DNA of 64,000 nucleotides from Mycobacterium sp. ITM-2016-00316 (GTDB lineage Bacteria; Actinomycetota; Actinomycetes; Mycobacteriales; Mycobacteriaceae), in NCBI RefSeq assembly GCF_002968335.2, contig NZ_CP134398.1, positions 4,588,001 through 4,652,000 on the forward strand. Direction: 5' to 3'. Below, piece by piece: positions 4,188 through 34,337 of the stretch. Positions within the stretch are counted from its first letter, which is position 1. Each line of letters starts with the position of its first letter. Position numbers and translations under genes: made by a program. A model generated the notes under the pieces. That model was not told where the DNA came from, did no database searches, and was given only the letters and a program-made list of their open reading frames with translations.

Positions 4188-5018
4188 TTACGCGCCGGTG
4201 AACTCTCGTAACTCTGGTTCCTCGGCGACGCCCCATGCGGCGATCCGGTCGGCGATAACAGCACGTCGGGCGGCTTCGTCGAAGATGCCGGCCTCGGCGA
4301 CGGTGGCACGCTTGTCGGCGTAGGCCTCGATGTCCCCACCGAGGACGTCGAGCTCTGCGGCGCGGCGGGCGATGGCGCTGACGGTCTCGGCGCGGGTGTC
4401 GGTGGCCAGGCAGTGCGCCACCAGGTTGGCGAAGAACTCCTCGTGGCGTTCCTCGTCGGCGGCGATCCGGCCGATGAGGCCCTTGAGGGTGGGCTCGGTG
4501 ATCTGCGCCTGCAGGTTGCGGGTGAACACCGCGTGCTCGCGCTCGAAGAACGTCATGAACACCAGGGTCTCGATCTGGGAGAAGCGATCGGCCCGGTAGC
4601 CCTTCATGACGTGCTCGACGCGCACGTCCTCATTGGCCGACGGGTCGATCTCGCGGGTGACCACCAGGTAGTTGCGCAGCGCGATGGCGTGCAGGTGCTC
4701 CTCGGCGGTCCAGCGGCCGATCCAGCGGCCCCACTTCTCCTCGAGGATGAAGTGCTCGACGATCTCGCGGTGGTGCGCGGCGAGGTTGTCCTTGGTGATG
4801 AGCAGGATCTCGCAGGCATCGGTGACCGGCTTGGGCAGGGTCACCTGAGACGGATCCCAGTCCTTGCCGCCCAGGAAGGCGAAGTTCTCGCCCTGGTCGA
4901 AGGGCACATAGTCGTGGCCGTACCAGGGCTCCTCGGTCGCGAGGTGTCGCGACAGGTTCTCCGCCACGACCGGCTCGAGCTCAAGGATCAGCGCGTTGGC
5001 AACGGGTTTCTCAGCCAT
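4188..5018 (-). CDS. desA2: Acyl-ACP desaturase family protein DesA2
   Basis: A 276-residue protein beginning MAEKPVANALILELEPVVAE, which matches what I recall of M. tuberculosis DesA2 (Rv1094) nearly residue for residue in several blocks. It belongs to the soluble ferritin-like di-iron acyl-ACP desaturases; the ligand-bearing helices include WTAEEHLHAIALR and ADEERHEEFFANL. The role is in fatty acid or mycolate precursor metabolism, although desaturase activity of DesA2 itself is doubtful. I set the start at 5018 rather than the in-frame GTG at 5039 because MAEKP is the conserved N-terminus. It lies between glyA and phoH2 on the same strand. Confidence 0.93.
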   Translation of the reverse strand: MAEKPVANALILELEPVVAENLSRHLATEEPWYGHDYVPFDQGENFAFLGGKDWDPSQVTLPKPVTDACEILLITKDNLAAHHREIVEHFILEEKWGRWIGRWTAEEHLHAIALRNYLVVTREIDPSANEDVRVEHVMKGYRADRFSQIETLVFMTFFEREHAVFTRNLQAQITEPTLKGLIGRIAADEERHEEFFANLVAHCLATDTRAETVSAIARRAAELDVLGGDIEAYADKRATVAEAGIFDEAARRAVIADRIAAWGVAEEPELREFTGA

Positions 5019-32842: not shown

Positions 32843-33202
32843 GGCAGCTTTGAGTGCGTGATAGCCGCCGATGACATCGGTGGCCTTGCGCAGACCGAGG
32901 TCCTGCAGGGCGGCGGCGGCGAGGCTGGACGTGTAGCCCTCCGAGCACAGCACGATCCATTCGACGTCATCGTCGATGGCCTCGGGGATGCGGGCGTCGC
33001 TGGTGGGATCGCAGCGCCACTCCAGATGATTGCGTTCGATCACCAGTGCGCCCGGGACGTCGCCTTCGGCGGCCCGCTGCCATCCCGGCCGGATGTCGAC
33101 CAGCAGCGCCCCGCGTTGCACCGCGGCAGGTACGTCGACTGCCTCGATCCGCTGCAACCGGGCGCGGGCGGCGTCGAGCACCGCGTCGATACGACTGGGC
33201 AT
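32825..33202 (-). CDS. Rhodanese-like sulfurtransferase
   Basis: A 125-residue single rhodanese domain with catalytic Cys in LCSEGYTSSLAAAALQDLG; LLVDIRPGWQRAAEGDVPGA is the conserved opening loop. It transfers sulfane sulfur, which fits its partner 4 bp upstream, a cysteine dioxygenase: the pair handles surplus cysteine sulfur. The stop lies inside the end of the plus-strand hydrolase gene (18-bp convergent overlap). Confidence 0.9.
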   Translation of the reverse strand: MPSRIDAVLDAARARLQRIEAVDVPAAVQRGALLVDIRPGWQRAAEGDVPGALVIERNHLEWRCDPTSDARIPEAIDDDVEWIVLCSEGYTSSLAAAALQDLGLRKATDVIGGYHALKAASLVGT

Positions 33203-33206
33203 ACGA

Positions 33207-33803
33207 CTATCCCTCCGGAGCGTCGGTGAGCTCGGTACGGCTGCGACGCAATGCGTTCCGCTCGGTCACACCGTAGTAGGACATGGCCGTCAGCGGCGGC
33301 GAGTAGGCGTGCACGCTGAGCGTCACCGGGGCCGGGGTGGGCAGTGCCGATCCCACGGTCGCTACGCTCTCCCCCGCAAGCGGGAGGTGCCCCCAGCCCG
33401 CCGGGGCCGCCCACACCACATCGTGCACCCAGCCCAGCGGGAACCCCGCCTGATCACCGGCCCTCAACTTGCGGCTGCGCAGACCGTGACCGTCCCAGCG
33501 GGTTTCCTGCAACGCACCGGAGACCACTGTCAGCGCGCCCAGCGAGCCGCCATGGTCGTGCAGTTCGGTCGACTTGTCCGGCACCCAGCTGATCAACCAG
33601 ATGTCGAGCTCGTCATCGCCGTAGAGCCGGTTGTACCAACGCTCGTCGGTGGGCAGCCGGGCACCGGCGAGCAGTCGGTCGTAGCGTCCGGACAGCACGT
33701 CGTCGGCGCAGCGGTCGGTGGCCTGCAACAGATCGGGTACGCGGAGCCGGGTCGGCGCCGAGACGGCGGGCGAAAGGGTGGGGGCCAGCAGTGGGGCAAC
33801 CAT
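33207..33803 (-). CDS. Cysteine dioxygenase family protein
   Basis: A 198-residue cupin of the type I cysteine dioxygenase family, oxidising cysteine to cysteine sulfinate with non-haem iron. The iron ligands appear as H-x-H in TELHDHGGSLGALTVVSGAL with a third His in LSVHAYSPPL. The ATG at 33803 has GGAGTTCCCC before it; residues upstream in the same frame belong to the leader. It forms an operon with the rhodanese gene. The leader carries a Cys-Cys short ORF and a terminator-like stem. Confidence 0.88.
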   Translation of the reverse strand: MVAPLLAPTLSPAVSAPTRLRVPDLLQATDRCADDVLSGRYDRLLAGARLPTDERWYNRLYGDDELDIWLISWVPDKSTELHDHGGSLGALTVVSGALQETRWDGHGLRSRKLRAGDQAGFPLGWVHDVVWAAPAGWGHLPLAGESVATVGSALPTPAPVTLSVHAYSPPLTAMSYYGVTERNALRRSRTELTDAPEG

Positions 33804-33813
33804 AGGGGAACTC

Positions 33814-33886
33814 CAGAAAACGAAAACGGACGGGTGGTCGGCGCTCACGCAGCCCGACAACAGCCCCGAATCGTGGTCCCGTCCGT
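33814..33886 (-). promoter_or_regulatory. Putative cysteine attenuator: stem with U-rich tail in the dioxygenase leader
   Basis: On the minus strand ACGGACGGG (33886-33878) pairs exactly with CCCGTCCGT (33834-33826), and the second arm is followed at once by TTTTCGTTTTC (ending 33814-33816), a terminator-like tail. The first arm lies in codons 2-4 of a short ORF with two adjacent Cys codons. Inner GTCGG/CCGAC pairing is possible as an alternative. The layout suits a switch between terminated and read-through leader RNA. Confidence 0.6.
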
Positions 33887-33889
33887 CAT
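33845..33889 (-). CDS. Leaderless short ORF with Cys-Cys, leader peptide of the dioxygenase operon
   Basis: A 14-codon ORF, MTDGTTIRGCCRAA then TGA, begins at the ATG at 33889, 86 bp before the dioxygenase start. There is no Shine-Dalgarno, and AACACT ends 7 bases before the ATG, fitting a leaderless transcript. Leaderless short ORFs with consecutive Cys codons are known in M. smegmatis as cysteine-responsive attenuators of sulfur operons; this one sits before a cysteine-degrading operon. The peptide itself is unlikely to have a function. Confidence 0.6.
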   Translation of the reverse strand: MTDGTTIRGCCRAA

Positions 33890-33905
33890 GGCCGCGAGTG
33901 TTGCA

Positions 33906-33911
33906 TAGATT
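33906..33911 (+). promoter_or_regulatory. -10 box for a leaderless lpqV transcript
   Basis: TAGATT ends 6 bases before the lpqV ATG, the same hexamer and spacing as before echA9. Only 28 bp separate this ATG from the divergent cysteine leader ORF, so the two leaderless promoters overlap. Confidence 0.5.
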
Positions 33912-33917
33912 GGCGGT

Positions 33918-34337
33918 ATGCGCCGCCACCCGATCCTCGTGACCGCAGCCGCCGCAGCCCTCCTGAGCGGGTGCTCGCCGAGCACCGAGGAGCCGGCCGG
34001 CGACACCTCCGCACCGAGCCCCACGACCTCGGAGGCCGCGCCGTCGCCGGAGGCGCAGGTGCCCGACGGCGCCGTCCAGGTGTCACCGGGCGGTGTCACG
34101 ACGGGTGTCGGCGCCCCGGCCGATGCCACCGAATCCGGCTATGGCCAGGCCTGTCTTGCCGCTCGGGCCTGGTTCGACGCACAGAACGGCACGGTCGAGG
34201 CCTACCTGCAGACGGTGCAGACCCCCGGCGCGCCCGGTCCGGGCAGCTTCAACATGGCGTGGTCCGAGCTGACACCGGGGCAGCAGGCCGCGGTCATCAT
34301 GGCCGCCAATGCCGCCGCCAACGAGGAGTGCGGCTGA
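33918..34337 (+). CDS. lpqV: Lipoprotein LpqV
   Basis: A 139-residue lipoprotein: signal peptide MRRHPILVTAAAAALLSGC with the lipobox LLSGC, lipidated Cys19, then a Ser/Thr/Pro-rich linker and a small domain (GYGQACLAARAWFDAQNG...AANEECG) with two Cys that may pair. Length and position before two patatin genes match M. tuberculosis LpqV (Rv1064c, 139 residues). Function unknown. Confidence 0.9.
   Translation: MRRHPILVTAAAAALLSGCSPSTEEPAGDTSAPSPTTSEAAPSPEAQVPDGAVQVSPGGVTTGVGAPADATESGYGQACLAARAWFDAQNGTVEAYLQTVQTPGAPGPGSFNMAWSELTPGQQAAVIMAANAAANEECG

Follow-up and report, generated by a model that had tools for sequence, protein, structure and literature searches.

In Mycobacterium smegmatis, leaderless short open reading frames (sORFs) with runs of cysteine codons act as cysteine-responsive attenuators, and six responding loci were reportedly described by Canestrari in 2020. 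Three loci with Cys-rich leaderless sORFs, cysA2/Msmeg_5788, Rv0485/Msmeg_0932 and nirA/Msmeg_4527, are named in the extracts of Shell 2015 (PMC4633059), and extracts of two citing papers speak of cysteine-dependent translation attenuation and state that pairing of the uORF can occlude the Shine-Dalgarno (SD) site (PMC13236596, PMC9031893). Six sORFs of M. tuberculosis are treated as conserved with those of M. smegmatis in the excerpted PMC9094748; their codons number 145, or 120 without Cys, so that each sORF would carry about four Cys codons. Candidate cys leader peptides lacking terminators were described in Mycobacterium, Propionibacterium and Bifidobacterium, according to the extracts of Seliverstov 2005 (PMC1262725). 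Cys-rich leader peptides also make up the NCBIfam entries NF042933 (leader_Ms5788A) and NF042934 (cis_reg_atten).

Like the M. smegmatis attenuators, the leader analyzed here has a leaderless-looking sORF that carries adjacent Cys codons toward its end and stands in front of a sulfur-metabolism operon. It differs in having two Cys codons where those have a longer run, and in its target, a cysteine-dioxygenase-like (CDO) gene and a rhodanese gene; none of the three loci named in the extracts of PMC4633059 is a CDO-rhodanese locus. With the leaders of Seliverstov 2005 it shares the closeness of the Cys codons to the sORF stop and the lack of a conserved terminator, but theirs, in the extracted text, precede cys operons and cbs, and co-variation of leader arms was detected here (PMC1262725). 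The preliminary description, which took the M. smegmatis attenuators as its precedent, was right in kind, as judged from the extracts of PMC4633059 and of papers citing Canestrari 2020, and the leader is probably a member of the mycobacterial class of polycysteine leaderless attenuators, with an unexpected target. It may be among the six conserved sORFs of PMC9094748, as far as the extracts of that paper go. A literature search found no description of a Cys-Cys leader at the CDO-rhodanese locus, which is no proof of its absence from print.

The locus and its cysteine codons

The leader and its operon are encoded on the minus strand; the genome (G000) measures 5.99 Mb, and we call the stretch of 64,000 nucleotides that contains them the window. 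The features, in the direction of transcription, are as follows.

33897 to 33902, minus strand: -10-like hexamer AACACT, 7 nt 5' of the ATG
33845 to 33889, minus strand: 14-codon leaderless-looking sORF MTDGTTIRGCCRAA, the proposed sensor
33878 to 33887, minus strand: predicted arm A, in the 5' part of the sORF, partner of arm D
33857 to 33862, minus strand: adjacent Cys codons TGT TGT, codons 10 and 11 of the sORF
33837 to 33858, minus strand: predicted small hairpin B:C around the sORF stop codon
33825 to 33834, minus strand: predicted arm D, upstream of the SD site, partner of arm A
33815 to 33825, minus strand: T-rich stretch after arm D, TTTCGTTTTCT, not conserved
33811 to 33814, minus strand: SD core GGAG of the CDO-like gene
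33207 to 33803, minus strand: CDO-like gene, 198 aa
32825 to 33202, minus strand: rhodanese-like gene, 125 aa

From the sORF stop it is 41 nt to the CDO-like gene, which starts at 33803; the rhodanese gene starts at 33202. The former matches PF05995 (E 4.5e-10) and cysteine dioxygenases in the PDB (best E 6e-11), and the latter PF00581 (E 2.1e-8), in agreement with the operon assignment of the preliminary description. Residues R55, H82, H84, H127, H165 and Y167 of the CDO-like protein are invariant in 13 aligned proteins, and the signature of Arg-type cysteine dioxygenases (His-X-His, a distal His, Arg and His-X-Tyr) is present. The Pfam and PDB sequence matches and the conserved residues suggest that the downstream gene is, by family, a putative cysteine dioxygenase. 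Its M. tuberculosis orthologue is presumably Rv1065. A search of 61 genomes gave a CDO homologue in 50, including 35 of 37 in the same genus (own genome counted), and the nearest named relative among the best 80 of 211 matching loci is that of Mycolicibacterium frederiksbergense, with a CDO-like protein 87% identical.

For comparison we collected 110 loci, from the searched genomes and the best 80 of 211 matching named loci, so the conservation reported below comes mostly from near relatives. L024 was excluded, as its contig begins inside the gene and provides no upstream sequence, which leaves 109 leaders; 108 remain without L097, which lacks adjacent Cys codons, and 103 of these are distinct, five leader sequences occurring twice. 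Two more (L030 and L093), in which the rule used found no SD-like motif, stayed outside the structure tests, for which 101 distinct leaders remained. Four records are titled only to a higher rank, three to Mycobacteriaceae (L076, L103, L106) and one to Actinomycetota (L061). The rhodanese gene is present in 106 of the 108 loci, the other two (L014, L074) being cut by contig ends.

The sORF extends from the ATG at 33889 to the last base of its TGA at 33845. Its start without a ribosome site, pointed out in the preliminary description, fits the distance of 7 nt between AACACT and the ATG, as would be expected for a leaderless start. Each of the 108 leaders has a hexamer of the form A....T 6-7 nt 5' of its start codon, against 4% at control offsets further upstream, a count that is partly circular, since start codons were picked partly by the score of this hexamer (those of L022, L070 and L100 were assigned by hand). 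The promoter spacing suggests that transcription would start at or adjoining the sORF start codon. The divergent neighbor is lpqV (PF17301), with its ATG at 33918. Just 28 nt (33890-33917) separate the two starts, so the promoters of the sORF and lpqV must overlap. A AATCTATGC-like motif is found upstream in 71 of 108 leaders, and lpqV is somewhere in the locus for 69 of these 71; 31 leaders with lpqV in the locus are without the motif.

A short ORF with adjacent Cys codons, tens of bases 5' of the CDO-like gene, is present in 108 of the 109 leaders (103 distinct). The sole exception, that of M. tusciae (L097), has two Cys codons which, read by eye, are separated. Adjacent Cys codons were also found in all five additional loci of the same genus (L175 to L179). 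The 14-codon ORF with TGT TGT at 33862-33857 was confirmed, and so was the conservation of its Cys codons across mycobacteria, which had been proposed as a check. Apart from these codons, no part of the 103 distinct sORFs is nearly invariant, and the other peptide positions drift. Two Cys codons are found in 70 of these sORFs, three in 30 and four in 3; the number two, at first regarded as setting this leader apart, is therefore the norm at the CDO locus.

The sORFs are 10-18 codons long. In 81 of 108 leaders the first Cys codon is codon 10, and the stop comes 1-3 codons beyond the second Cys codon (2 codons in 87 of 108). Among the 103 distinct sORFs, Cys-Cys is preceded by Glu in 75 and followed by Arg in 75 and then by Ala or Pro in 92; the Arg is sometimes replaced by Pro, Trp, Gln or Ala. 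Of 206 Cys codons in the 103 distinct sORFs passing the Cys-Cys scan, 195 are TGT, the minority codon in genes of the window (29 TGT vs 96 TGC in long GC3-rich ORFs). The sequence comparison supports the view that selection acts on the Cys codons of the sORF. Since all 75 Glu codons are GAG and 65 of the 75 Arg codons are CGG, constraint on nucleotides may contribute. GGAG lies directly 5' of the Cys codons in 62 of 108 leaders.

Within the CDO-like gene (33207-33803), a palindromic repeat, CTCCCCCGCAAGCGGGAGGTG, is found in frame at 33369-33389, where the protein has about 20 residues more than its closest relative, L031. A degenerate pattern of this repeat (at most 2 mismatches) has 12 matches in the genome, 4 of them free of mismatches, vs 1 for the reversed control.

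Folding and co-variation of the leader

The 9-bp perfect stem of the preliminary description is present in the window. Of all perfect Watson-Crick stems that the sORF can form with other parts of the leader it is the longest, joining 33886-33878 (sORF nt 4-12) with 33834-33826, and the predicted fold lengthens it to 10 bp by a G-U pair, with 43 nt enclosed in the loop. When the downstream part was dinucleotide-shuffled 5000 times, 2.6% of the shuffles gave a stem of at least 9 bp, which makes chance an unlikely, if possible, source. The stability of the whole leader is ordinary (-31.2 kcal/mol, z -0.39; 68 of 200 shuffles fold as well). As a conserved form the perfect stem did not hold up: in 101 leaders the longest stem reaches 9 bp only in L001 and L031, and is 5-6 bp in 79. 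The terminator that had been read from the stem and T-tract fared no better. At least 5 T within 8 nt after the stem were found in 3 of 101 leaders (L001, L031, L032), and a terminator scan of 33500-34200 gave 0 sites; an intrinsic terminator as the conserved mechanism was rejected on these two results. They also mean that a conserved terminator hairpin with a U-tract, as in a trp-type attenuator, was not found, nor was a mutually exclusive antiterminator of sORF arms, since A:B pairing fell below that of swapped segments (z +5.05). As far as sequence comparison goes, the leader is real and strongly conserved, and the stem/T-tract terminator is not its conserved part.

GGA of the SD core is invariant in alignment A1 (47 of 52 prepared sequences; L051, L070, L091, L103 and L106 were omitted for their odd lengths). 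RNAalifold on A1 returned no consensus structure and no pairs, and position-by-position pairing counts gave scattered enrichments only. Because neither indicated a fixed-register structure, we adopted a segment-swap test, in which predicted duplex energies of segments from within a species are compared with those of segments swapped between species. Segment A is the sORF before the Cys codons, B runs from the Cys codons to the stop, C is the 18 nt after the stop, and D is the last 20 nt before the SD. In predicted ensembles of the 101 leaders, at least 5 bases of A were paired with the post-stop region in 100 and at least 3 bases of B in 97; the SD core was mostly paired to something in 68, and the start codon mostly paired with the post-stop region in 20.

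With 55 representatives, own pairs were stronger than swapped pairs for A:D (z -6.95) and for B:C (z -5.51), and none of five control pairings (A:cds, promoter:CD, A:C, B:D, B:cds) reached significance. Smaller sets gave permutation p-values of 0.007 (20 representatives) and 0.005 (8 representatives); permutation p-values overstate independence, and a test on tree-disjoint pairs, in which changes are more nearly independent, is fairer. In that test A:D was stronger in 20 of 40 pairs and weaker in 12 (Wilcoxon p 0.0072, sign test p 0.11), with p 0.026 for the 33 pairs at a distance of at least 0.1, and 17 stronger and 6 weaker among the 25 pairs at a distance of at least 0.2 (p 0.0034). Results for A against the whole post-stop region were weaker (p 0.052, 0.16 and 0.25; 11 stronger and 14 weaker at a distance of at least 0.2), those for B:C gave p 0.12, 0.22 and 0.066, and the control pairings showed no significance on tree-disjoint pairs. 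Co-variation, which had been proposed as a check on the stem, is moderately supported between arm A in the 5' half of the sORF and the last 20 nt upstream of the SD (arm D); for the B:C hairpin it is weakly suggested. The A:D helix is predicted to end at a median of 4 nt from the SD. Direct sequestration of the SD by the arms was unsupported (A:SD z -1.39, B:SD z -0.80, CD:SD z +2.80), the SD region pairing less well with its own post-stop arm than with swapped ones.

Direction and level of control

On balance we favor a reading in which the sORF acts in cis as a sensor of cysteine supply for the CDO-rhodanese operon, mainly at the level of translation, with induction by cysteine lack. The transcript would start at or next to the sORF start codon, and ribosomes would load at its bare 5' end. 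When Cys-tRNA is plentiful, they would clear both UGU codons, finish and depart; the emptied leader would then fold, with A pairing with D just upstream of the SD of the CDO-like gene and the B:C hairpin forming around the stop, so that fewer ribosomes would initiate on the dioxygenase gene. Under cysteine shortage, a pause of the ribosome at codons 10-11 would hold the leader open and the operon would be made. We infer the pausing at the Cys codons, the sign of control and the action on translation rather than transcription.

We modeled ribosome occupancy of the 101 leaders in a simple form. Opening the downstream 30S site has a mean predicted cost of 14.4 kcal/mol, which fell to 10.8 kcal/mol when a ribosome occupied the Cys codons and to 12.7 kcal/mol when one occupied the stop. 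In the model the drop exceeded 2 kcal/mol in 66% of the 101 leaders. The window's own leader was left unchanged by the stalled ribosome (9.20 to 9.15 kcal/mol), because arm A is 5' of the assumed footprint, and for the part from the SD to the start alone the mean cost of freeing barely moved (6.65 to 6.60 kcal/mol). The modeled averages fit translational attenuation with the operon on at cysteine lack.

Induction of a cysteine-oxidizing enzyme by cysteine lack is physiologically odd. Under standard attenuator logic, scarcity of cysteine would turn on a 'cysteine-degrading' operon, which calls the annotated role into question; the oddity could mean another role for the enzyme or a reversed sign, as in tnaC. 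The TnaC leader peptide of E. coli also stands in front of an operon for amino-acid catabolism, and it stalls at the stop codon when free tryptophan is bound. By analogy, high cysteine would make the ribosome linger at the sORF stop through the nascent peptide and free cysteine, so that the leader opens and a cysteine-disposal operon is induced. That the downstream gene is a CDO by family, that the stop follows so soon after the second Cys codon, that E-C-C-R-[A/P] recurs, that relatives in the family f12 end in ECCR-stop or QCCR-stop and that a modeled ribosome at the stop also lowers the opening cost all speak for this sign. The opening is greater with the ribosome at the Cys codons, however, and residues outside Cys-Cys vary within a peptide of only 10-18 codons, while the Cys-rich sORFs of other families have little in common except Cys. 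We consider this reversal unlikely. Sequence alone is compatible with either scarcity or plenty as the inducer.

The same sensor with the same sign could also act through Rho-dependent, non-intrinsic termination in the leader instead of translation initiation, as the extracts of Seliverstov 2005 suggest for mycobacterial cys leaders that lack terminators (PMC1262725). The T-tract is not conserved, and the post-stop region is pyrimidine-rich by eye. A helix ending so near the SD suits control of initiation, though, and a leader of 75-104 nt, start codon included, is short, so Rho seems to us an improbable output, to about the same degree as the reversed sign. An intrinsic terminator is far less probable still: the stem and a T-rich stretch exist together in the window and in L031, but the T-tract is rare, no terminator-like site was found and the stem encloses 43 nt. 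Least probable of all is a small protein acting in trans, whose conserved Cys-Cys could conceivably bind metal, since only Cys-Cys is near-invariant, the length of the sORF varies and part of its sequence co-varies with the downstream RNA.

If induction by cysteine lack through translation is correct, a minimal two-codon cysteine sensor governs a thiol-oxidizing operon in nearly all sampled members of the genus, Cys-rich leaders recur at the same gene family in other families, and ribosome-read cysteine control extends past biosynthesis operons. This would also offer a direct test of the purpose of bacterial 'cysteine dioxygenase', as a true cysteine-disposal gene should not be wired to cysteine lack. 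We would give somewhat less than an even chance to a broader reading, in which the annotated cysteine dioxygenase across Actinomycetes belongs to a cysteine-starvation response and is switched on at scarcity by Cys-rich leaders that differ by family; its role would then be redistribution or salvage of sulfur from other thiols, not disposal of excess cysteine.

Cys-rich leaders in other families and in the same genome

Cys-rich short ORFs precede CDO-like genes in three other sampled families. In f5, two of three genomes have an sORF ending in RRGHLFDECC[R/P]-stop before a CDO gene and rhodanese 60-63% identical. In f12, one CDO paralogue per genome in all five genomes (5 of 18 loci) follows an sORF ending in ECCR or QCCR, and these loci are without a rhodanese match. 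In f33, a short ORF whose last 10 codons include 3 or more Cys, and whose stop is at most 250 nt from the CDO-like gene, was found at 18 of 33 loci. The bar of at least 3 Cys was reached at 21 of 59 scanned loci (3 of them same-genus), vs 70 of 2360 random windows from the same loci (3.0%, slightly inflated, as the windows were not kept clear of the CDO start), and loci within one family are not independent in these counts. Outside f1 and f33, 2 of 23 scanned loci (L217 and L225) reached it, which is near chance. L217 has a possible five-codon leaderless sORF, MRCCC-stop, at 1390-1404, about 30 nt before a CDO-rhodanese pair. In 8 of 9 f33 loci inspected (L227, L228, L239, L240, L243, L244, L259 and L262), the gene next to the CDO-like gene and its Cys-rich sORF resembles, by its sequence, cofD of F420 synthesis. 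The longer CDO-linked sORFs of other families had no match to NF042933 or NF042934 (0 of 6 and 0 of 10), and the 14-aa peptide of the window is below the 20-residue minimum. A DNA pattern for GECCR-stop was found in only 2 of 121 genomes of the order.

In the genome of the window, a 12-base poly-Cys pattern gave 82 matches vs 74 for the reversed control, mostly noise. Among 30 + 20 stretches inspected, only L123 and L143 looked like convincing poly-Cys leaders, and L141 was a false lead. Both have leaderless-looking poly-Cys sORFs (L123:1456-1530 and L143:1132-1218); L143 matches NF042933 and NF042934, and L123 matches neither. The gene after L123 is presumably an Rv0485-like ROK gene. The two are likely counterparts of two of the Shell 2015 loci. 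Elsewhere in the window, positions 4634-4700 match the ASdes sRNA family (RF01781, 65.6 bits).
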